From positions 1-25,214 of the IMG/VR virus record IMGVR_UViG_3300033145_000405: DNA of 25,214 nt; one strand, 5' to 3'. This document shows positions 2,150-25,214 of this stretch, piece after piece. How positions within the stretch are numbered: position 1 is the stretch's first letter; each line of letters begins with the position of its first letter. The position numbers were made by a program, and so were the translations under genes. Below the pieces are notes generated by a model, which was given only the letters and a program-made list of their open reading frames with translations, was not told the DNA's origin and made no database searches. Source of the DNA: a virus.

Positions 2150-3721
2150 TTACTTTTTCAAGAGCTCTTTTGGCACGATCGCCAGTTTTCTCTCAAGGAT
2201 ATAATCGATCATATCCTTTTTTGATTTCTTCTGGACGTCCTTCGGGATCGCTGACTTCACTTCTTTACCCATTTTAATGAGTTCATCCTTCGTGAACTTC
2301 TTCAGGTATTCTTCATCGATCCGAAACTGAGACATATCTATTCCGATCTCTTTCGCTGTTGCGATAAGGTATTCCGTATCGTGACGGTTAATGTTACGTC
2401 TTGCGGCTGAGAATATTTCACTCTTTATTGCTTTCTCATCACAATTGGCAAGCTGTTTTTCAATATCCCAACGAACCATATGATTACAGGAGCCTTCTTC
2501 GCTTGACTTCATTTTTCCTTGCGCGACAAGGAACTCGTATATATCCATACCGGATATCTTATCTGCATTGAACATAATCTCCAATATGACTCGATGGAGT
2601 TGTGTGGGTGTAGCCTTTGCTTCAAGCCGTTCTATTAGGAACCGGCGCTGCGTTTCTGATATACGGTTTGCTTTCTTTGCAAGCGCGCGTTCGTCTATCG
2701 GTTCTTCATCCTTACCGTTTTTCTTCTTTCCCTTACTCATCTTTAGCTGCTTGAGTTTTTTAACAAGTCCTTTATACGCAGGTGCGTTCATGTAAAACGT
2801 TTCTGATCCGGTAACATCATCGAACATAACAGAAACATTTTCACCCGATTCAATTAATCGTTTTATAGATGCTTTACCGAGATCATCTTCAGCACTCCAA
2901 CCATTCAGGCTTTCCCACTTGTTATAGTTATCGTTGTATTCATCTACCGTCAGAACAGTAACACCAGTTTCCTTTTTACGAGAGGCAATATGTTCTTTGA
3001 CCTTCTTAGCAAAACATTCCTTGTCAAGACATTCGCCTTTGAGTTCAGAATCTTCATCAAAGAAATCACCTTGGTTTATTCCGGAATGAACACAATCCTT
3101 ACACTGTGTCTTATCGAAAGCCGCATTGCCAAGACGCTGTGTATAATTGTCGAGTTCATTTTCAGCCTGTTTAACTGACATCTTTTCTGATACGATCTCT
3201 TTGAACATATTGACCTGTACTTTACTATCCACTAATCGCGACAGTACAATACCATGGCCGACTGAGATCATTTTTGCCGTAAGCGCTTCCTTAATTATCT
3301 TCGGAAGGTCCAGCAGTTTGATACGTTGTGTAATATACAGAGGTTTCTTGCCGATAGCCATAGCGCCGTCTTCCACTCCGTACTTATCAACGATCTGTTT
3401 TATCGCAAGCGATTCATCGATCGTGTCCAGGTCCTCACGCTGAATGTTTTCAATGAGCTGAACAGTTTCCCGGTTTTCTTCTCTGATATCCTGGATAACA
3501 CACGGAACAGTATCAAGCCCTGCTCCCATTGCCGCGGCCCTTCTACGATAACCGGCGACTAGATTGTACTTACCGTTGTCTACCAATCGCACAAGTAATG
3601 GCTGCAGAATACCGTTCTCTTTAATGGATTGCATAAGTCCTTCGATAGACTCCTTGGTGATCTTCGATCGGATGTTATCATCCGCAATGATCTCCGTGAT
3701 ATTTAATTGCTTAAATTTCAC
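2150..3721 (-). CDS. ParB/RepB/Spo0J-family protein
   Basis: This 523-residue protein has a classic ParB N-terminal domain: the AGYRRRAAA box (56-64), the ENIQREDL box (91-98) and a following helix-turn-helix region (about 110-190, with SVGHG and MSVKQAE). Family knowledge says the N-terminal domain binds CTP in true ParB clamps and that the HTH recognises parS. A cysteine cluster follows (C207, C210, C231, C236), probably a zinc site; it and the long Lys-rich C-terminus, absent from canonical ~290-residue ParB, make this a long phage form. No ParA is visible here. It may work in segregation, as a transcription regulator or as a nuclease-like ParB. The RHH gene follows 11 bp after its stop codon. 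ATG at 3721 has a GGAGG site 7 nt upstream. Confidence 0.88.
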   Translation of the reverse strand: MKFKQLNITEIIADDNIRSKITKESIEGLMQSIKENGILQPLLVRLVDNGKYNLVAGYRRRAAAMGAGLDTVPCVIQDIREENRETVQLIENIQREDLDTIDESLAIKQIVDKYGVEDGAMAIGKKPLYITQRIKLLDLPKIIKEALTAKMISVGHGIVLSRLVDSKVQVNMFKEIVSEKMSVKQAENELDNYTQRLGNAAFDKTQCKDCVHSGINQGDFFDEDSELKGECLDKECFAKKVKEHIASRKKETGVTVLTVDEYNDNYNKWESLNGWSAEDDLGKASIKRLIESGENVSVMFDDVTGSETFYMNAPAYKGLVKKLKQLKMSKGKKKNGKDEEPIDERALAKKANRISETQRRFLIERLEAKATPTQLHRVILEIMFNADKISGMDIYEFLVAQGKMKSSEEGSCNHMVRWDIEKQLANCDEKAIKSEIFSAARRNINRHDTEYLIATAKEIGIDMSQFRIDEEYLKKFTKDELIKMGKEVKSAIPKDVQKKSKKDMIDYILERKLAIVPKELLKK

Positions 3722-5411: not shown

Positions 5412-5646
5412 TCTTCTCATCCTCCTTAAAACACGCGATTACTTTTTTAATATCTATATCAACAATGTCCCAATTATAACGAGCATCTCTTTTAGCTTCT
5501 CTTATATCCTCCTTTGTATGCCATGACTCAACGAATAACGTAACAGCACACCCGTTAGCGTTTGCAATTCGTTTCCAGTAGTACATCCGATTACCGACAT
5601 ATTCATCCTGCCGGATAGCTTGCTTAAATTTGTCTGCATAAAACAT
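5389..5646 (-). CDS. Hypothetical protein
   Basis: 85 residues (MFYADKFKQAIRQDEYVGNR...). It has AAGGAAATCA before the ATG and overlaps its neighbours by about 23 nt on both sides, as expected in a tightly packed phage operon. Aromatic and charged residues are mixed, with no domain I can name. Confidence 0.6.
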   Translation of the reverse strand: MFYADKFKQAIRQDEYVGNRMYYWKRIANANGCAVTLFVESWHTKEDIREAKRDARYNWDIVDIDIKKVIACFKEDEKNGKDHTD

Positions 5647-6067
5647 TGATTTCCTTTCGTTCTCGTCTTATCTTAGTGTGAACTGTGTTTATATTCATAT
5701 CATACTTCTTAGCTATTTCCGCTGTTTTGTATCCTTCAATATACATTTTCATTATGTCACTAAGATTTTTTATGATCTCACATGTATCAATACTACAAGG
5801 ATCTGCACTGATCGCGGATTCCGTCGTTAATTCAACTGCACGATAATGATGTTTAGGTATACTATTCTTTCGGAAATATTCAGCAATAACTGACTTGGCA
5901 ACAGTATAAAGATACCGTTTATTTTTTATACCGTTTCCGTATTTCCATACCTTTATCATTGCGTCTTGCGCTAAATCGTCAGCTAAATGATGATAGTCGG
6001 AAATTCTGTATCTATACAGCCGGATCTTAATGACATTGAATATGTAATCTCTTATATCATTTTTCAT
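5624..6067 (-). CDS. ECF-like sigma-70 family RNA polymerase sigma factor
   Basis: About 147 residues. Region 2 is seen in HLADDLAQDAMIKVWKY (residues 27-43) followed by RYLYTVAKSVIAEYFRKN (51-68), the pattern that binds the beta-prime clamp and the -10 element. Region 4 is seen in IEGYKTAEIAKKYDMNINTV (110-129) and KIRRERKEI (132-140), a helix-turn-helix for the -35. Regions 1 and 3 are absent, as in ECF sigmas. Two starts are possible: ATG at 6067, overlapping the upstream gene by 11 nt, or ATG at 6094; I prefer the shorter. Its likely role is to redirect host RNA polymerase to phage promoters (inference). A transcription activator of the same fold is an alternative. Confidence 0.78.
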   Translation of the reverse strand: MKNDIRDYIFNVIKIRLYRYRISDYHHLADDLAQDAMIKVWKYGNGIKNKRYLYTVAKSVIAEYFRKNSIPKHHYRAVELTTESAISADPCSIDTCEIIKNLSDIMKMYIEGYKTAEIAKKYDMNINTVHTKIRRERKEINVLCRQI

Positions 6068-6308
6068 CTTCGCACCAATACATGCATTCATCATAAGCTA
6101 TACTTATGACATGATCTTTCGGGTTAGCATCTTTTAATACTTTCAATGCTTTTAGCGCTTCTGGTTTCGCGCAATGAGCTAACATTACTGCGGCAGAATG
6201 GAGTAGCTTTTCTTCTCCATCTTCTTTAAAAATATTGTCCGGCAATATTTTATGCATATCAAGATACTTAATGCTTGCTTTTAACTGTTCTTCGTTTGTC
6301 TTCGGCAT
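6057..6308 (-). CDS. Hypothetical helical protein upstream of the sigma factor
   Basis: 83 residues with amphipathic helices (KLLHSAAVMLAHCAKPEALK) and an acidic end (CMYWCEDEK). The start follows GGAGGATTAAAGTT. Its stop codon overlaps the sigma-factor start, so the two are translationally coupled. A role as a sigma-binding (anti-sigma-like) partner is possible from position alone; nothing in the sequence shows it. Confidence 0.6.
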   Translation of the reverse strand: MPKTNEEQLKASIKYLDMHKILPDNIFKEDGEEKLLHSAAVMLAHCAKPEALKALKVLKDANPKDHVISIAYDECMYWCEDEK

Positions 6309-15632: not shown

Positions 15633-18600
15633 ATGGCCGGTTTAGATTCAAATACAAAATTATATTTACCGTTTGATCAGCATACTTTAGGTGCTACTAC
15701 TAAAGATGGTGCATTAGAAGTATTGGATTATGGTAGCGCAGGTAGCATTCTTACACAATATGGCAATGCTACTTTAACAACAGTAAATACACATGTCCAT
15801 AATGCATGTTTAACTTTAGATGGTTCCGGAGATTATATAGATTGTGGTACCACGTTAGCAGGAGTTTTGTCTGGCAACAATATAACAGTTTCATTGTGGG
15901 CAAAAGCCAACACAACAACAGCAAATGATGGTGTGTTCACTATAGGCAATTTTGCAAACACTTCTGGTGAATTTACTATAAATTGGGGTGCCAATGCAAA
16001 TACTATTAACGGGTTTATAGACGGAAGTTCAGCTAATAAGGTTCAATATGTAATGTCAGATACAGATGATTGGCATCACATAGTGTTGAAATACGATGGT
16101 ACCACATTAACATTAGTTGTGGATAACGATACTCCTGTAACAGTGGCTCTTTCAAAAACACTTACATGGACAGGTCTTAAAACAATAATCGGTGGATATT
16201 ATTCATCTTCATATACTTTTAATGGATTGATCGCAGATGTCAGAGTCTTTGGTTCTACAGTATCTGCTGAGAATATAACTAAATTGTATGGTTCAGTATC
16301 TGGAACAACAGAAGCCATTGGTGGCGAATTGCTTTGGATGAAAGGTTGTCAAGATCAATCTGGTGATGGATGTAGCGATAGTTATCATATACCTACTTTC
16401 GTAGGTACGGCTCAGTTAGATACTGCAGTAACTAAATATGATGATGATACAACTTCGATTCTTTTTGATGGTGATAGTGATTGTGTTACAGTTCTCGATA
16501 GTGATAGTTTTGATATTGTTGCTTCAAATTCTACAAGTTATACAATAGACTTCTTTGTTAAACATAGCGATCATTCTGGGTACGAAGCATATATAAGTCA
16601 ATATCAAAGTGCTGATTATAGATGGACTTTTTGGCATAGAGATGGAGATGGTATGCAATTTTACGTTAGAAATTCAACAGGGGTTATAACAACACCTTAC
16701 GGTACTGAAATTACGGATACTGATTTACATCATGTAGCACTTATTATTAATGGAACTGGAACTACTAAAAATATAGGTATTTATTTAGATGGAAATCAAA
16801 CTTCTTATTTACAAGATGATTCAATTGCAAGTTTTGCTGGAATTTTATATATAGGTGACAAAGGAGATGGATCTATGTATCTTGATGGGAATACATCTCA
16901 TCTACGAATACAAGCATCTAACATCTTTAATGCATCGCCAAATGTAGGAAAAACTGACACTATAACAGTTCCGACAGCACCATATACAGCGGCAGCAATC
17001 GCACTCGAAGTAGACACAAATGACGCAGTGACGGTTACTGAAAGCGTTGCATTAACTATTGCAAATAATGTTTCAGTTTCAACTTCGGTAACAATTGCAG
17101 AAGACGTTGCTACATTCATACCTTTGCTGATACTGGAAAAAACTGATAGTATTTCAATTTCAGATGTCGTTCCTTATACTACTATATCACCATGTATGCT
17201 TCCCGGTAATCCTCAAAATGTAACATGGACTGATGGAACAAGATATTGGCGCGCATGGCATAATTGTACAGGTAACTATATACAATTCGATTATACAACT
17301 GATCCAGATAATGCATGGACAGAAAATACTAATGCACGGATAACGACAGGTATTTTTCATACTTATTCGGTCCATGGTAGTGATGTAAATGTTGCGGTAG
17401 TATATCGCGACGCAGATAGTGATGTGCATTTTATATTAGCAAAAAATTATACTACCTCATTTAGCTGGGGCGCTTCTACAGAACTTTTTGCTGATGCCAC
17501 TAAAATATATAAAATGCCAACAGTTAAACATCTTGGGAATGATAGATGGATGGTTGCAGTTATTGAAGATAATGCTGGATCATATTCAATATTTTCCAGG
17601 ACAAGTAAAGTAACAAATCCACAAAATGTATCTAGCTGGAATGCAGCTGAAACAATAGATACAGCTACGGGTGCAAATCAGGCATTTTGTACATTAGCAA
17701 CTGCTAATTCAGGATATGATGCAGTAGCAGTATATACAGATGGATCTGCATTACTATTAAAAGAATATTCCGGAGAAGCATGGGATGAATCATCTACAGC
17801 AGTCGATACAATAAACAAGTCTTTCATTACGAAAAAATATGAAACTTTTGAAATTATGTATACTTCCCTAGTTGGAAAAATACATATAGCTTATGTAAAA
17901 TCTGATAACACTATAGTAGAACGGCATTATGAGTTTGGCGTAGGATTAGAAGATGAAAAAATTCTTTCTGAATATGACGATGTGCATACCGGACCTACAA
18001 TATCTATATTCGGAGATTATATATTTTTTATTTGGTATAACCATACACAGTCACATATACATTACGTTCAAGAACATATATCCACAGGTACAAAATCAGA
18101 AGTATTACATATTGATGTCGTTAGTGGATTAGAACGGATTGACGGAAGTAGAACTGATGGCACACAGCATGGCGCGTTTATTTTATGGGAAGATTCAGAG
18201 GGGTTACATTCTAAGATTATTGGTTTAGGTCTTAATGTAAATGATTCAGTAACCGTTGCAGAAAACACTGCAGTGAAACTGCCTACATTATTGCTTACAT
18301 CTTTAGATACGGTATTTAGCGAAAAAGATGTTTCATATAAAGGCGTAACATTACCGGATAGCGTTAACCAACCGAACGTATGGGATAAATCCGGAACATA
18401 TTTACAACATACAGACGCAACGATCGAAGACGATTCAGACGCGTTAAATGGAAAAGCGCTTGAACTTTCAGCAAGTGATGGATTAAACGGAACTCTTTAT
18501 TACCGGCATTATACAAACGGGCACTATTGGTATGATAATGTAAATAATGCCAAAGGTCACACAGTTGAATTTCGTATCAAAGTTATGGATGATACATCTT

Positions 18601-19529
18601 CTCCCGGGACTGAATATGAAATAGGATACATTTATATAACTGATGGTACATGGGCGTATAATATAAGTATAAAAGGCGGTTCGATTTTTATCCCTGGAAC
18701 TTATATATCAGGTGCGACACAGCAATACAATATTGATTTAACAGATACTTATCATGTAATTAAAGCGGTAACAATAGGTACATCGGTAAAAGTTTATGTA
18801 GATGGAACATTAAGAATTTCAGCTACATTAGATTATTCGTCTGGTGCAACAAAAATGATTCAAATGAAAGTAGGTGGATCGTCTACGGGTAGTACTGGTG
18901 TATATCGAATAGATTATCTTAATTATTTAGTAACGCGAAATCCGGAATTAGTAAATACACTTAATCTTCAAGTCATTGATTCAGTTTCTGTCGCGGAAGA
19001 TGTAAAAGCAGTAAGAGTAATACATTCAGGAGTTAGCAATTCTATTTCTATTACGGAAAACATTGCTACTTTTTTGCCTCTTGTAATTTATTCCAGCGAT
19101 TCAGTTTCTATTACAGAAAATGTTGCTACAGCTCTTCCACTCGTAGTTTTCTCCAGTGATCTAGTTTCTATTACGGAATACATCGAAATGTTTAAGATCG
19201 GTGACACTGAAGTATCAGATTCAATAAGCATCGCGGAAAATATTACGTTAGAATTAGCAAATAATTTAACAAAGACAGATTCAATAAGTATTGCAGAAAA
19301 TGTTGAATTACAACTTATTTGTAATTTATTTGTATCAGATTCAATTACTATTACGACTTATCAAACATCTATTATTCCTAGATTATATTTAATTACATAT
19401 GAATCTATTACAATTACTGAATATGATTTAAAACATGAATTTTTATTCAGTTATGAATTTGAAAATATTACAGATGAACTATGCTTTAAAAATACAATAG
19501 AGTTATTAGAATTTGTGAGTTTGACATAA
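15633..19529 (+). CDS. Large LamG-repeat fibre or adhesin-like protein
   Basis: 1298 residues. The N-terminal ~230 form a LamG/concanavalin-A-like jellyroll (TVSLWAKA, DDWHHIVLKYDGTTLTLVVD, FNGLIADVRVF). A second such domain lies at about 230-440 (YTIDFFVKHSD, LHHVALIINGTG). Residues ~510-860 look like a beta-propeller or BNR-type region with repeated Trp and Asp segments. A third LamG-like domain is at about 930-1110 (VEFRIKVMDD, VYVDGTLRISATL). Linkers and the C-terminus carry DSVSITEN-type repeats of 20 residues. LamG domains bind carbohydrate, so this is probably a receptor-binding fibre. CGAGG precedes the ATG. It is more AT-rich than the genes upstream. Confidence 0.8.
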   Translation: MAGLDSNTKLYLPFDQHTLGATTKDGALEVLDYGSAGSILTQYGNATLTTVNTHVHNACLTLDGSGDYIDCGTTLAGVLSGNNITVSLWAKANTTTANDGVFTIGNFANTSGEFTINWGANANTINGFIDGSSANKVQYVMSDTDDWHHIVLKYDGTTLTLVVDNDTPVTVALSKTLTWTGLKTIIGGYYSSSYTFNGLIADVRVFGSTVSAENITKLYGSVSGTTEAIGGELLWMKGCQDQSGDGCSDSYHIPTFVGTAQLDTAVTKYDDDTTSILFDGDSDCVTVLDSDSFDIVASNSTSYTIDFFVKHSDHSGYEAYISQYQSADYRWTFWHRDGDGMQFYVRNSTGVITTPYGTEITDTDLHHVALIINGTGTTKNIGIYLDGNQTSYLQDDSIASFAGILYIGDKGDGSMYLDGNTSHLRIQASNIFNASPNVGKTDTITVPTAPYTAAAIALEVDTNDAVTVTESVALTIANNVSVSTSVTIAEDVATFIPLLILEKTDSISISDVVPYTTISPCMLPGNPQNVTWTDGTRYWRAWHNCTGNYIQFDYTTDPDNAWTENTNARITTGIFHTYSVHGSDVNVAVVYRDADSDVHFILAKNYTTSFSWGASTELFADATKIYKMPTVKHLGNDRWMVAVIEDNAGSYSIFSRTSKVTNPQNVSSWNAAETIDTATGANQAFCTLATANSGYDAVAVYTDGSALLLKEYSGEAWDESSTAVDTINKSFITKKYETFEIMYTSLVGKIHIAYVKSDNTIVERHYEFGVGLEDEKILSEYDDVHTGPTISIFGDYIFFIWYNHTQSHIHYVQEHISTGTKSEVLHIDVVSGLERIDGSRTDGTQHGAFILWEDSEGLHSKIIGLGLNVNDSVTVAENTAVKLPTLLLTSLDTVFSEKDVSYKGVTLPDSVNQPNVWDKSGTYLQHTDATIEDDSDALNGKALELSASDGLNGTLYYRHYTNGHYWYDNVNNAKGHTVEFRIKVMDDTSSPGTEYEIGYIYITDGTWAYNISIKGGSIFIPGTYISGATQQYNIDLTDTYHVIKAVTIGTSVKVYVDGTLRISATLDYSSGATKMIQMKVGGSSTGSTGVYRIDYLNYLVTRNPELVNTLNLQVIDSVSVAEDVKAVRVIHSGVSNSISITENIATFLPLVIYSSDSVSITENVATALPLVVFSSDLVSITEYIEMFKIGDTEVSDSISIAENITLELANNLTKTDSISIAENVELQLICNLFVSDSITITTYQTSIIPRLYLITYESITITEYDLKHEFLFSYEFENITDELCFKNTIELLEFVSLT
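18978..19424 (+). repeat. Eight 60-bp repeats encoding 20-residue DSVSITEN motifs
   Basis: DSVSVAED, NSISITEN, DSVSITEN, DLVSITEY, DSISIAEN (twice), DSITITTY and ESITITEY start at residues about 1116, 1136, 1156, 1176, 1195, 1216, 1236 and 1257. Isolated copies occur near residues 464, 485, 504, 869 and 890 at domain borders. The repeats are diverged at the DNA level, so they are old but constrained. They probably form a beta-rich stalk. Confidence 0.7.
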
Positions 19530-19847: not shown

Positions 19848-20365
19848 TGAGCGAAAATAGAATACAAAATCAAAATAGCTTAGACAATTTAAAAAAAGAT
19901 AATAAGGCACATCCGGAATATGGTAAAGGATATTGCTTGCCTCAGGAAAAAATTGATGAGCTATTTATACTTTTAGCTGATAATGAAAATCTTACTAATG
20001 CCGCTAAAAAGATTGGCATTACTTACGATACAGCTAAGAAGTATTTTGAACAAGGAGATCCCCGTCGCGGAATATCATCATTAAAAAAACGTCTTGTTAT
20101 GCTTCAGACTAAGCGTTCTGAAAAATTCGCTGATGAATATCTTAAACGTCGAAAAGACTTGATGACATTAGTGCAAGAACAAATCGATAAATTGCGAAAA
20201 GACCTAAACGATTCAACTGATACGAAAAAAATATCTTACACAGCGTTGGAAAAAATGATCAAGCTCGAATTAACGCTTCAGGGACAACCCGAAAAAACAG
20301 ATACTATGGGTATGTTAACCGCTGAAGATCTTAAGATTCTGGAGAGTAGTGCGAATGACAAATGA
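19847..20365 (+). CDS. Terminase small subunit (TerS), putative
   Basis: 172 residues from ATG at 19847, overlapping the upstream stop as TAATG, with GGAGG nine bases upstream. The HTH-like segment NLTNAAKKIGITYDTAKKYF (48-67) fits the DNA-binding domain of TerS; the following helices (KRLVMLQTKRSEKFADEYLK, EQIDKLRKDLND) suit the oligomerisation core. It overlaps the TerL gene by 11 nt. TerS rings recognise the packaging site and recruit TerL. Confidence 0.8.
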   Translation: MSENRIQNQNSLDNLKKDNKAHPEYGKGYCLPQEKIDELFILLADNENLTNAAKKIGITYDTAKKYFEQGDPRRGISSLKKRLVMLQTKRSEKFADEYLKRRKDLMTLVQEQIDKLRKDLNDSTDTKKISYTALEKMIKLELTLQGQPEKTDTMGMLTAEDLKILESSANDK

Positions 20366-21857
20366 TCAAATACGAGCTCAGGCAATAAAAGAATACACGC
20401 GTTGTAAATCCGACGCGCAGTATTTTATACATACTTACTGTTGGACTTTTAATGCTAAAGAAACTGATCCTACTAAACCTAAGATATTTAAAATGGAGCC
20501 GTTCCCGCATCTTGTCGATCTTATAAAAGAACTTGAATCAGCATTAGCAAATAAGCAACCTATTATAATTGAAAAGTCACGGGAAATGTGTATTAGCTGG
20601 ACGTTGATGGCGTGGCAATTACATAAAGCATTATTTACAGAAGGTTGGATGTCATTAAATATTTCGCGTAAAGAATCAGAAGTTGAAGATACTGGTAAGA
20701 CACCTAAATCTTTATTCGGTCGTTTAGATTTTATGTATAAACATCTGCCGGCTTTTCTTAAGATGCGCGCAGAAAATCCATTTCTTACATTTAAAGTACA
20801 ATCAAATAATTCTTATATATCAGGTGAATCCGCCAATCCTAACGCCGGCCGTGATACGCAATATAGTTTTATATTAATTGATGAAGCCGGAATGGTTGGG
20901 TGTCTTGATGAAATGTGGCAGTCAGTAAGCAACTCCGCTGATGTTATATGTTTGAATTCAACGCCGCCAAGAGAAGGTTTAGCGCATAAGTTTTCGCAGC
21001 TTAGGTTTATGAAAGATTCGAATTTTAAAATATTAAGATATCATTGGTCTCAGCATCCATATAAAGATGCAGAATGGTTTATAAGAAAAACAGCCAATAT
21101 GACAGAGGAAGATATTGCAAGAGAGCTTGAAATTAATTATGAGAAGTCAGCTTCTTTGAAAATCTATCATGAATTTGATGAAGAAGTGCATGTTCCTTCG
21201 TTTGATATCCCATATAATAAATTATTACCTTTATATATGTCATGGGATTTTGGTTTAGATGATCCTGAATTTGTTTTGTTTATTCAAATCGATGTTAACT
21301 CAGACGGCAATCGTAGGGTAACTGTACTCGATGAATATGAAAAACGCAATCTATTAACTATTGAACATTGTGTAAATTTAAAAAAGAAGTTAGCAATACT
21401 TAGATTCGCAAGTAGTTATGACAGTATAAAATGTTATGGTGACCCGGAAGGATCAAAGCGTGAACGAACATCAAGACAAAATATTATACAGCAATATAGC
21501 GTATTAGGATTTAAGATAATAGTTAAAGAAGTCGGAATACAGGAACGCAGGCGATCAGTTAAAATTCTTTTAAAATCAAGAGATTCAAAAAATATGGCAC
21601 TTGCACGGATTAATCCAAGATGCGAAAAATTAATTGAATGTCTTAAAAATCATCAGAGAAAAAAGAAAGACGTCGAAGACGCTAAAAGAACAAAATGGAC
21701 TCATGGAGCTACGAGTTTTGAATTTTTTTGTGTTAATGAATTTCCGGCACTTCAATTAATGAATATTACAGTAAGTCTTGAACCTGAAAACAGACGTAGA
21801 AAAGAAATACTGCCGACACCTAAGCAAAGAAGGAGAAGTTTGATATGGGAAGGATAA
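20355..21857 (+). CDS. Terminase large subunit (TerL)
   Basis: 500 residues. The ATPase half has a variant Walker A (KSREMCISW, 74-82), Walker B (ILIDEA, 173-178) and a coupling motif (NSTPPREG, 201-208). The nuclease half has two catalytic aspartates in MSWDFG (D298) and YGDPEG (D363). The third acidic site, often in an HxxDALRY-like segment, is instead THGATSFEFF. Start at 20355 with GGAGAG eight bases upstream. TerL translocates DNA and cuts concatemers. Placed between TerS and portal, as in most tailed phages. Confidence 0.9.
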   Translation: MTNDQIRAQAIKEYTRCKSDAQYFIHTYCWTFNAKETDPTKPKIFKMEPFPHLVDLIKELESALANKQPIIIEKSREMCISWTLMAWQLHKALFTEGWMSLNISRKESEVEDTGKTPKSLFGRLDFMYKHLPAFLKMRAENPFLTFKVQSNNSYISGESANPNAGRDTQYSFILIDEAGMVGCLDEMWQSVSNSADVICLNSTPPREGLAHKFSQLRFMKDSNFKILRYHWSQHPYKDAEWFIRKTANMTEEDIARELEINYEKSASLKIYHEFDEEVHVPSFDIPYNKLLPLYMSWDFGLDDPEFVLFIQIDVNSDGNRRVTVLDEYEKRNLLTIEHCVNLKKKLAILRFASSYDSIKCYGDPEGSKRERTSRQNIIQQYSVLGFKIIVKEVGIQERRRSVKILLKSRDSKNMALARINPRCEKLIECLKNHQRKKKDVEDAKRTKWTHGATSFEFFCVNEFPALQLMNITVSLEPENRRRKEILPTPKQRRRSLIWEG

Positions 21858-23209
21858 AAAAGAAAACATTAAAACCATACAGCAATAACGATACAATAAA
21901 ATTAAAAAGCGGCCGTAAGAAATCCGTACAGGAATCATATCCCGGTGTTGGTACTAGCACTCAAGATTATGGATGGACTAATCTTACTAAAGATTTAGCG
22001 CGCGATCTTGATCCCGTTATACAAGACCGCATGCAAGATATAGCTTTTTTTCTGTATGAATCTAACCCGCTCGCTCACCGTATAATTGAAATGACAAAAG
22101 ACTTTGTTATAGGTGATGGATTCTCCTTTAAAGCCAAAAATCCAGAAGTTCAGAAAGTCCTCGAAGCGCATTGGAATGATCCGGTTAATAATTGGGGTAT
22201 TAAACAAGACGATAAAATCAGAGAACTAAGTATTTTCGGTGAACAGTTTTATCCAGTATTTGTTAACCCGTATAGCGGTCATGTTCGGCTTGGTATTATT
22301 GATCCAGGATCGGTAAAATCTGTAAAGACTGATAAGAAAAATCCTGAAATATTAAGAACTGTAATATTAAAAAGTTCTGATTATAGCGGAAAGGATAAAG
22401 CATCCAGGTTTAAAGTAATTAATCCTATTGAGAAAAAAGGAAGCAAATATAATGGCCTTTACGAAGGCGAAATATTTGTTTTTAATCTAAATAAAATCAG
22501 TAGCACATCTCGCGGAAGAAGTGATCTCCTTCCTTTAGCTGATTGGATAGATGGATATGATCAGTTTCTATTCGCAAGGTTGGAACGCGCCAGCATACTT
22601 AACAATTATGTATGGGATGTCCTTCTCGAAGGAGCTGACGAATCAACAATAAATGAATGGCTAAAAAAACAAGCCATGCCTCAGCCTGGCAGTATAAGAG
22701 CTCATAATGAAAAAGTTAAATGGGAGGCTGTATCGCCGGATCTTGAATCTTCCGATGCTTCTAAGGAAGCTAACCTATTTAAAATGCAAATTCTCGGTGG
22801 TGCAGGATTTCCTAATTTATGGTTCGGAGAAGGTGGGGAAGGTATCCGGGCCGCCGCACAGGAAATGAGTTTGCCTACAATGAAACATCTTAAAAATAGA
22901 CAGAGATATTTTAATTATCTCATAACTCATGTTTTTAATTTCGTTATTGATCAAGCAATCTTAGCCAAGACATTAGAAAGAGATGTAGACAGAAGATTTA
23001 CTGTATTCACGCCAAACCTAATTAAGCAGAAAGAAGTAACAATGGGTATGGCAGCTTTCCGTGTAACAGAATCTATCAGTATCGCAGTAGAAAAAGAATG
23101 GATCACTAAAGAACAAGCTAAGGTATCTTGGCAATCATTTATGAAAGAAATAATCGGTTTAGAAGTTGAAACTATTGAAGAAAAGGAGACAGAAGATGAG
23201 ACTAGTTGA
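21845..23209 (+). CDS. Portal protein
   Basis: 454 residues. Portal features include the N-terminal MTKDFVIGDGFSFKAKNPEV (early core), FGEQFYPVFVNPYSGHVRLG, VRLGIIDPGSVKSV, IFVFNLNKIS, and FGEGGEGIRAAAQEMSLPTM (like the conserved stem and crown portions of phage portals). It directly follows TerL with a 13-nt overlap, and AAGGAGAAG lies upstream. It forms the dodecameric DNA entry channel of the head. The C-terminus is acidic (ETIEEKETEDETS). Confidence 0.85.
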   Translation: MGRIKKKTLKPYSNNDTIKLKSGRKKSVQESYPGVGTSTQDYGWTNLTKDLARDLDPVIQDRMQDIAFFLYESNPLAHRIIEMTKDFVIGDGFSFKAKNPEVQKVLEAHWNDPVNNWGIKQDDKIRELSIFGEQFYPVFVNPYSGHVRLGIIDPGSVKSVKTDKKNPEILRTVILKSSDYSGKDKASRFKVINPIEKKGSKYNGLYEGEIFVFNLNKISSTSRGRSDLLPLADWIDGYDQFLFARLERASILNNYVWDVLLEGADESTINEWLKKQAMPQPGSIRAHNEKVKWEAVSPDLESSDASKEANLFKMQILGGAGFPNLWFGEGGEGIRAAAQEMSLPTMKHLKNRQRYFNYLITHVFNFVIDQAILAKTLERDVDRRFTVFTPNLIKQKEVTMGMAAFRVTESISIAVEKEWITKEQAKVSWQSFMKEIIGLEVETIEEKETEDETS

Positions 23210-25214
23210 TATAAACCCGCAGAGCATTGCCGACTTAAAAGATGAACTTCTTTTTAGTCTATGGCAAAAACTGAATATCGTCTGGGAATCTGAAAATCCT
23301 GATAAAGAAGAAATAGTTACCAGGTCGATATTTCTTGTTAACGAGATGAGAGAACGTAGTATGGATATAAAGGATACTCCTTTATATAAAGCTACAGAAG
23401 AATGGCGTAAAACTCATAAGGATAACATGCCTGAAAGTATGAAAGAAGCTATTCGCGCGCCGTTCGGTTCTCCCGGTGGCAAAAGATACATGGCAGCTCG
23501 TCTTATAAAAATGTTTCCACAGCATAAGATGTATGTTGAAGCATTTACCGGCGGCGGTGCGGTATTTTGGAAAAAGAAACCATCCATGAAAGAAGTTATT
23601 AATGATAAAGATGACGGTATAATTATGGCATACCGTATTATACAAAATCTTACTGAACAGCAATGGGAACAATTAAAGAAAATGGATTGGGTATACAGGA
23701 AAACCGGATATTTAAAATATAAAAAACGATTCGATGCGTCTTCCGGTATGAGTTTGGAACGATTTCATGATTTTATTTATCTCAAACAATGTTCCGATCT
23801 TGCTGAAATGAAAAGTTATGATGGGCGTGACGAAGGAAATCATTGGGCCGGAGTAAATAACATGATGAAAATGAAGGAACGAATCAAAGACGTTATCATT
23901 GAACATATGGATTATGCCGAACTTATTAAAAAATATGATTCACCTGATACATTCTTTTATATCGATCCTCCGTATCCATCTGCTAAACTTTCATGGAAAT
24001 GGATGCCGACTACCGAAGAAGTGCAATCTGTTGTTACTGGATTAAAAGGTAAATTTCTTTTAAGTTATGAATTAACTCCATCGTTTAAAGAATTTAAAAA
24101 AGATACAATAGGTTTATGGTCGATAGGAAAAAGAGATAAAAATAATACAAAGAAACAGAAACAAGAACAGCTCGTTCATAATTATGATATACAAAGTAAT
24201 ATGGAATATTTTTCCGGTTCGGACACCGGCGCGTGGGGTGAAGCAGTTCAAGAACTTGCTAAAATGGATAATTATTCCGGTACGCTATCCGAAGCATATG
24301 AAAAATCTGAATGTGCTGTTCCATGTGAAATTGAATTTGGTATTAGAACATCAGATATGAAAGAATTTTTCTTTTCGATATCCGCCGAGGATTATCGAAT
24401 TATACATAGAAAAATTGACGCTCATATTGCTGAACAGGTAGATAAATCTCTTATTCGATCAGTAATTGCTAATTATCTATACGATGAAAAGTTGAATGAT
24501 AGAATACAAGAAGCTTTGCTTAATCCATATGGCGTTATATCTAATATTGATCTCGCAAAAGACTGTAGAATTATAGAATCTGCTGAAAAGACAGGATGGA
24601 TAACTATTGAAATAAATGATCAGCTTCCATATGTGCTGACAAAAGAAGCTGTTGAAACAGATTGTATGCCTTCACTTGGATTTTCTGCACTCCCGCGAAA
24701 TTTTCGTGAAAGTATTCCAGAAGAGTATCATTTCTGGACGGCTAAAGATAAAGATCAAGCACTTCTTATGCGCGACAGTTTAATCGAAGCTATGAAAGAT
24801 GGTCTTACGATACATGAAAAAGATAAATGGCGATATAGTGCTCCGCGAAATAGATGTATGAACTGTTCTTTGCCGCCCACTCACGAAGTATTATGGGCTG
24901 AAGGAAAAGGACATGCATGGTTTTGCAAGACACATCTTAAAGGATGGTTGGAAGAACATAAAGATGATGTTGATTATATTAAGGAAGTCAAAGACGGCGA
25001 AGCAGCTAAAAAGTTCCAGGATAACTCGAACCCAAATATCCGTAAGGATTTTAAAGAGGTACGATTTTCATTACATCATCAATGGTTTAAAGAATCAGTT
25101 GGTCATTGGGATCTTCGTATTGATACAGGTAAGGATGTAATTCATATGACACTTGAATACAATCCGCTGAAAGAAAATATAATAGAATGTAATTTGCAAT
25201 GTTCCGAAGATGTA
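23196..25214 (+). CDS. D12-class adenine DNA methyltransferase fused to zinc-finger and LigD-phosphoesterase-like segments, C-terminus open
   Basis: At least 673 codons without a stop, running off the right edge. ATG at 23196 follows AAGGAGACAGAAG and overlaps the portal end. Residues 89-96 (PFGSPGGK), 115-123 (EAFTGGGAV) and 257-260 (DPPY) are the D12/Dam-type N6-adenine methyltransferase motifs. After about residue 300 no methyltransferase part remains. A C-x2-C...C-x2-H set (C554, C557, C577, H580) and EVRFSLHHQWF with GHWDLRIDTG (636-645) follow; HWDLRID resembles the HYDFRLE signature of the LigD phosphoesterase domain. Coming right after the portal, this may be a prohead-associated or packaged enzyme (inference). 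True length unknown. Confidence 0.75.
   Translation, partial: MRLVDINPQSIADLKDELLFSLWQKLNIVWESENPDKEEIVTRSIFLVNEMRERSMDIKDTPLYKATEEWRKTHKDNMPESMKEAIRAPFGSPGGKRYMAARLIKMFPQHKMYVEAFTGGGAVFWKKKPSMKEVINDKDDGIIMAYRIIQNLTEQQWEQLKKMDWVYRKTGYLKYKKRFDASSGMSLERFHDFIYLKQCSDLAEMKSYDGRDEGNHWAGVNNMMKMKERIKDVIIEHMDYAELIKKYDSPDTFFYIDPPYPSAKLSWKWMPTTEEVQSVVTGLKGKFLLSYELTPSFKEFKKDTIGLWSIGKRDKNNTKKQKQEQLVHNYDIQSNMEYFSGSDTGAWGEAVQELAKMDNYSGTLSEAYEKSECAVPCEIEFGIRTSDMKEFFFSISAEDYRIIHRKIDAHIAEQVDKSLIRSVIANYLYDEKLNDRIQEALLNPYGVISNIDLAKDCRIIESAEKTGWITIEINDQLPYVLTKEAVETDCMPSLGFSALPRNFRESIPEEYHFWTAKDKDQALLMRDSLIEAMKDGLTIHEKDKWRYSAPRNRCMNCSLPPTHEVLWAEGKGHAWFCKTHLKGWLEEHKDDVDYIKEVKDGEAAKKFQDNSNPNIRKDFKEVRFSLHHQWFKESVGHWDLRIDTGKDVIHMTLEYNPLKENIIECNLQCSEDV

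Follow-up and report, generated by a model that had tools for sequence, protein, structure and literature searches.

We analysed a 25,214-base IMG/VR fragment of an uncultivated tailed virus (the window, which here always means this whole stretch) and the protein encoded directly after its portal gene. The protein fuses a D12-class N6-adenine DNA methyltransferase to a zinc site and to barrels of the kind found in LigD 3'-phosphoesterases, which are cellular end-joining repair enzymes. It belongs to a viral family, found at about 44 loci, in which tandem LigD-type barrels lie between the portal gene and the head-protease/capsid genes. The domain identities were assigned with near certainty. 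As to what the family does, we lean modestly towards polyvalent post-portal proteins with a pair of LigD phosphoesterase (PE)-type barrels as their core and DNA-handling enzymes attached interchangeably, which would be packaged together with the DNA and enter the cell with it; on the delivery mechanism itself our judgement is evenly balanced. A recurring capsid-module family with tandem LigD-type barrels, ligase fusions, and head-protease fusions suggests that viruses bring their own DNA-end repair. How linear viral genomes survive entry and become sealed is a question to which the family also offers a testable answer.

LigD-type fold of the barrels

The C-terminal region was modelled with AlphaFold2 on a complete homologue (locus L002, residues 341-749), as the window copy is truncated. 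The model used 22 family sequences and no templates, and the sequence from the virus ANMV-1 was left out of the structure models. In the last 130 residues, which form the eight-stranded barrel of the LigD 3'-phosphoesterase superfamily, the predicted local distance difference test (pLDDT) score was about 90-97. Foldseek returned six PDB matches below 0.001, all of them LigD 3'-phosphoesterases (3p4h at 2.7e-6, probability 1.00). A second structural aligner gave Z scores of 17.0, 16.4, 14.6, 14.4, 13.3, and 12.7 to LigD entries, with the next unrelated fold at 4.2. The LigD structures matched were 3p43, 3p4h, 3n9b, 3n9d, 5dmp, and 2lj6, and the crystal structures superimposed on the model with a root-mean-square deviation of 1.9-2.4 A over about 118 residues. 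A sequence-only reading of the window had likened its HWDLRID string to the HxDxR core of LigD, and this fold comparison (Z 12.7-17.0) bears the likeness out. The refuting condition which that reading had named, a predicted C-terminal structure lacking a LigD-like barrel, thereby did not come true. That reading rightly saw one LigD-like domain; it missed the tandem pair of the family and the loss of the front half of barrel 1 in the window protein.

Both barrels of the family share the fold. In a tandem model of the relative at L014 (mean pLDDT 85.6), LigD structures were matched with Z scores of 10.6-13.7, some best at barrel 1 and others at barrel 2. When the whole set of PDB sequences was searched with a barrel-1 profile built from eight diverse relatives, three entries matched at E<=10. 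Each was a LigD 3'-phosphoesterase with the HxDxR motif aligned, at weak E-values (0.15-1.5). With HHalign, barrel 1 aligned to seven bacterial LigD domains at 95% and 3e-8, and a control with the XkdF domain gave 0.3%. Barrel 2 aligned to barrel 1 at 94% and 1.4e-7, with HWDLRI facing HxDLR. Its direct alignment to LigD was weak (22%, C-terminal strand only); barrel 2 is tied to LigD through barrel 1 and through structure.

The relation surfaced only through family profiles and structure. Searched directly, neither the window protein nor its C-terminal part matched LigD in Pfam, PHROG, or the PDB sequences. Among the relatives, PF13298 (LigD_N) matched L025 (1.4e-5) and L036 (2.5e-5) over nearly its full length, under the gathering cut-off in that scan; the L025 record passed the cut-off when neighbours in frame were included. 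In BFVD, the single viral fold match below 0.001 was the 827-residue protein A0A516LT18.

The family and its partner domains

The family scans searched 2.9 million viral contigs with family alignments, giving 13 and then 44 loci. The 44 loci are non-redundant after duplicate removal, include ANMV-1, and were mapped with purpose-built profiles; all family counts are lower bounds owing to a peptide-pattern pre-filter. L071, from a genome scan, is not among the 44; it and L030 are apparently one virus. No family member came from a scan with only the ANMV-1 protein as query, and the one locus returned by a DNA-pattern scan (L006) was set aside, with no family member among its open reading frames. 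In the annotated phage collection, barrel 1 was found only in ANMV-1, and the family has therefore been invisible to annotation.

The partner domains, fused or adjoining, are ATP-dependent DNA ligase, metallo-beta-lactamase (MBL), nucleotidyltransferase, D12, UDG, NUDIX, and InPase. Across the 44 loci, the core protein carries a ligase in 27, a nucleotidyltransferase-like domain in 17, an XkdF head protease in 14, and D12 and MBL domains in 6 each. Further loci have the ligase in a neighbouring gene (e.g., L014); L015 also has NUDIX and UDG, and L017 has InPase. Nearly all ligases carry KxDG, and the MBL domains carry HxHxDH. The ligase-like domains of L028 and L035 lack KxDG and are possibly inactive. 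Pfam agreed with the domain assignments in the loci checked; Cas7/Csy3, P_proprotein, Polyketide_cyc, and similar matches were sub-threshold and disregarded.

A portal gene lies upstream in 29 of the 38 loci with enough sequence, and several portal families are represented. The recurrence beside portal genes that the sequence-only reading had proposed to look for was thus found, with this domain class next to portals in other viruses. Additionally, a narrower scan of genome contigs found a prophage in a Planctomycetota metagenome-assembled genome with a portal gene, a MuF-like gene, a gene for methyltransferase, barrel 1, and D12, a protease-like gene, and capsid and tail genes; these gene names come from sequence read by eye.

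Some members are elaborate. L016:5043-9137 encodes an MBL domain followed by an apparent intein; the LigD-type barrels, two in number, come next, and the tail is rich in KYPYPY. The 2,241-residue protein of L036:2850-9572 combines MBL, ligase, D12, a LAGLIDADG-containing insert, and two LigD-type barrels. At L015:5025-10843, two adjacent genes together encode NUDIX, nucleotidyltransferase-like, ligase, UDG, barrel 1, and D12 domains, followed by barrel 2, another D12, and XkdF, so that this one cluster has two methyltransferases. In ANMV-1 (L004:5868-9368), the gene after the barrel protein encodes a 1,166-residue cysteine-rich repeat protein whose C-terminus reads as MuF-like.

Architecture of the window protein

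The terminase, portal, and fusion genes of the window are consecutive, each overlapping the next (Table 1). The start of the fusion gene overlaps the portal stop by 14 bases, and the same overlap occurs in L002 and L003. The frame begins with an ATG at 23196, with a TTG upstream at 23166, and is free of stops to the window end, as the sequence-only reading had described. The homologues at L002 and L003 are complete and are 87% and 77% identical to the window protein, respectively; by comparison, about 76 C-terminal residues are absent from the window copy. On both of these IMG/VR contigs, the portal gene lies on one side and a fused protease/major-capsid gene on the other.

Table 1. Coordinates of the packaging genes and of the fusion protein's domains in the window
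Feature	Residues	Coordinates	Strand	Evidence or remark
Terminase large subunit (context)		20349..21857	+	phrog_5989 1.4e-15, phrog_2 1.5e-14
Portal protein (context)		21845..23209	+	phrog_10963 5.7e-44
Post-portal fusion protein	673 aa	23196..25214	+	Cut by the contig end; relatives of 749 aa (L002) and 753 aa (L003)
N-terminal leader	1-80	23196..23435	+	Own profile search
D12-class N6-adenine DNA methyltransferase	85-340	23448..24215	+	PF02086, PHROG, PDB sequences, motifs
Barrel-1 remnant (C-terminal half) and linker	377-537	24324..24806	+	HHalign, family profile
Inter-barrel linker motif	478-514	24627..24737	+	PYVL...A...MPxxGxSALPxxxRxxIPEEYxFW
Zinc site CxxC-x19-CxxH	554-580	24855..24935	+	Sequence; DUF7455 resemblance
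Barrel 2, first 54 residues	620-673	25053..25214	+	L002 model, Foldseek, HHalign

The fusion frame is real at the coordinates in Table 1. A chance motif, or an assembly artefact uniting separate genes, could be suspected from a contig end that falls inside the gene and from a HWDLRI string that is short on its own. We give this explanation practically no chance. The identical fusion is present on three contigs, two of them with complete copies, and the joint is therefore not a frameshift artefact; the complete homologues refute the two-gene alternative that the sequence-only reading had set for itself, and the fold and profile evidence stands for a LigD barrel. By the Nei-Gojobori method, synonymous change is near saturation and the ratio of nonsynonymous to synonymous change (dN/dS) is low in every segment. 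It is lowest in the D12 domain (about 0.02-0.04), followed by the zinc site (about 0.05-0.07) and the LigD-like part (about 0.06-0.2). Since the ratio is low throughout, the entire fused frame is maintained.

From the N-terminus, the protein consists of the leader, the methyltransferase, the barrel-1 remnant with the linker, the zinc site, and barrel 2 with its HWDLRI motif. Related leaders start or sit within other post-portal proteins and are sometimes found in a separate gene (L011, L012). The D12 domain matched PF02086 at 1.5e-18, with 67.9 bits against a cut-off of 22, and phrog_56 at 5.5e-37; phrog_1996 covered its C-terminal half, and 7m6b and 2dpm were matched by sequence. The FxGxG motif for S-adenosylmethionine (SAM) is FTGGGAV at residues 117-123, and the catalytic DPPY occupies residues 257-260, in agreement with the complete D12 core recognized beforehand. 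In the L003 homologue (L003:3669-5930), the SAM motif is FTGGEAV, and its methyltransferase activity may differ from that of the window protein.

The middle of the protein, previously left unassigned, proved to be mostly the C-terminal half of barrel 1 and a conserved linker. HHalign placed it on the family PE1 profile at 99.4% and 6.2e-22, and profile hits begin only at PE1 position 128-130; the HxDxR half of barrel 1 is gone. For residues 410-465 or thereabouts, which are poorly predicted (pLDDT mostly 31-50), only homology is claimed. The linker motif is near-invariant throughout the family. Rhodobacter phages also gave a match to the middle region, apparently a chance hit (E 0.01); the matching frame is not the annotated gene there.

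The sequence-only reading had called the zinc site a zinc knuckle and a Cys4/His site. The actual spacing is C554-x2-C557-x19-C577-x2-H580, with three cysteines and one histidine; it is neither Cys4 nor the CX2CX4HX4C of a retroviral-type zinc knuckle. Its fold matches in BFVD were DUF7455 proteins, at weak E-values. In barrel 2, HWDLRI lies at residues 637-642 (25104-25121) and aligns with the HxDxR motif of the relatives' LigD-type barrels. L008, a close relative, retains the leader and the barrels but lacks the methyltransferase, with a clean gap in its place, and has another module where the zinc module would be. These differences from the window are natural module swaps. The replacement for the zinc site (approximately L008:4372-4620) has EHAARIKEPKQFD...QAIRF...TPDEAKEWL, a motif presumably similar to one in phage head proteins.

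Active site, proposed role, and known systems

In LigD, His42, His48, and Asp50 bind Mn, whereas Arg52, His84, and Tyr88 bind phosphate, and these residues are mostly essential (PMC8656161). In the copies of family barrel 1 that cover each position, H42 is kept in 35/35, H48 and D50 in 38/38, and R52 in 37/38. Position 84 is mostly Glu, and position 88 is Trp in 40/40. From these residues, the family probably includes metal enzymes that are active and whose phosphate pocket has changed.

We propose that the core protein would be built into the prohead, either by way of its neighbours among the head genes or by its fusion to the XkdF protease. Once the maturation protease had set it free, it would be packaged and would travel with the DNA into the new cell. 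There, the LigD-type barrel would bind DNA ends or clean them of 3' phosphates or ribonucleotides, members with a ligase would seal ends or nicks, and the methyltransferase would mark incoming DNA against host restriction. In the window protein, the attached enzyme is the D12 adenine methyltransferase, and barrel 1 has lost its front half. Prohead entry and release at maturation are suggested by the gene position and the recurrent protease fusions. Care of DNA ends or lesions and protection from restriction at entry are suggested by the domain set (barrel, ligase, MBL, nucleotidyltransferase, UDG, NUDIX, and methyltransferase). The sequence-only reading had proposed a virion-carried or packaging-linked modification or repair enzyme; the position and the XkdF fusions fit it, as indirect evidence. 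The analysis establishes the domains with their fold and order, the conserved metal site of barrel 1, the gene position, the protease fusions, and purifying selection, whereas packaging, delivery, activity, and the substrates are inferred.

The same position can also be read as that of an enzyme of the infected cell, absent from the virion, which would be made late and would repair nicks and methylate concatemers before or during terminase packaging through the portal. A gene that overlaps the portal gene and stands beside the terminase would be made with the packaging machinery, and ligase, UDG, MBL, and LigD-type domains would suit the clean-up of a packaging substrate. We hold this rather unlikely, as the XkdF fusions (14 of the 44 loci) and the portal-to-protease/capsid position point to the particle. 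Moreover, PMC5512222 argues for the packaging of polyvalent proteins that carry InPase and occur in head contexts of phages.

Several observations weigh against packaged, delivered DNA-handling enzymes. The HxD of barrel 2 is kept in 14/38 family members and lost in 24/38, and barrel 2 is therefore often no catalyst. The close clade of the window protein has lost the front half of barrel 1. The window's barrel 2 has H48, D50, and R52 only: the H42 column holds Q with an adjacent His, no residue clearly corresponds to H84, and W apparently replaces Y88, which leaves both the Mn-ligand set and the phosphate set incomplete. The window protein is also without a ligase, and no Ku gene was found in 33 related records, mostly fragments. 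Finally, the ligase, nucleotidyltransferase, MBL, D12, and XkdF calls in most loci come from our own profiles, which were checked against Pfam only partly. The window's own barrel may be catalytic or, alternatively, may bind ends only.

The losses in both barrels, together with the swapping of methyltransferase and zinc modules among close relatives, would also suit a structural role, with the barrels now inert parts of the head or portal vestibule, or grips for DNA ends, and the enzymes varying as passengers. This seems unlikely to us. The three metal ligands of barrel 1 are retained without exception where present, the window's barrel 2 keeps HWDLRI, and the D12 domain is the most constrained part of the protein.

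Among known systems, the LigD 3'-phosphoesterases (PF13298; 3P43, 3P4H, 3N9B, and 5DMP) share the barrel fold (Z up to 17.0) and the HxDxR core, and bacterial LigD is fused to an ATP-dependent DNA ligase, as are many members of the viral family. The viral family differs in its post-portal position, its tandem barrels, its residues at positions 84 and 88 of barrel 1, and its recurring nucleotidyltransferase-like and MBL partners, and the window copy falls under Pfam detection.

The family resembles polyvalent proteins in its logic. For such proteins of phages and conjugative elements, PMC5512222 (Iyer et al. 2017) argues that they are packaged with the DNA and reach the new cell together with it; they are likewise large mosaics of terminase-portal phages, with InPase, NUDIX, and DNA methylase as common themes. 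Here, too, a single polypeptide from a terminase-portal phage brings together functional domains of several unrelated kinds. Text searches of that paper turned up neither XkdF nor D12 nor glycosylase, and where it speaks of phosphoesterases and ligases it means 2H domains and RNA ligases. Archaea are reported there to have few such proteins, whereas the ANME-associated (anaerobic methanotrophic archaea) virus ANMV-1 has a family member. No LPD domains turned up in the general Pfam scans run, in which their models were not checked individually.

The ANMV-1 protein (AJP62006.1), whose gene immediately follows that of the portal, has a nucleotidyltransferase-like domain, a ligase, and a pair of LigD-type barrels; it is without a methyltransferase and is annotated only as 'ATP-dependent DNA ligase'. 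The main text of the paper describing ANMV-1 makes no mention of a ligase.

In its chemistry, the family resembles bacterial-type non-homologous end joining (NHEJ; Ku plus LigD), with no Ku found in the 33 related records. Mycobacteriophages Omega and Corndog, as cited in passages of PMC7719229, likewise exploit NHEJ chemistry for infection; they bring Ku and use the host LigD, whereas the present viruses bring LigD-type barrels and ligase, with no Ku found. According to the same passages, about 3,000 actinobacteriophages were searched for NHEJ components and none were found. A bolder and more doubtful proposal, which we offer tentatively, is a Ku-independent end-joining kit in the heads of tailed viruses, including a proposed archaeal one. 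To its basis of tandem LigD-type barrels would be added modules for ligase, MBL nuclease, nucleotidyltransferase, glycosylase, and methyltransferase; the head protease would free the kit to act on viral DNA ends at entry, and the window protein would be its methylating branch.

The domains and the general idea of delivered polyvalent proteins are known; the organising domain, the family, and the combination are new. Literature text searches, with most subscription journals outside their scope, found no publication in which LigD-type phosphoesterases and portal or head-protease genes are brought together as a single protein family.

Elsewhere in the window, a 1,298-residue protein with three LamG/concanavalin-type lectin stretches is encoded at 15633-19529, shortly before the packaging genes, and is perhaps a receptor-binding protein. 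Sigma-factor-like (5624-6091) and ParB-like (2150-3718) proteins, both on the minus strand, suggest a bacterial host.

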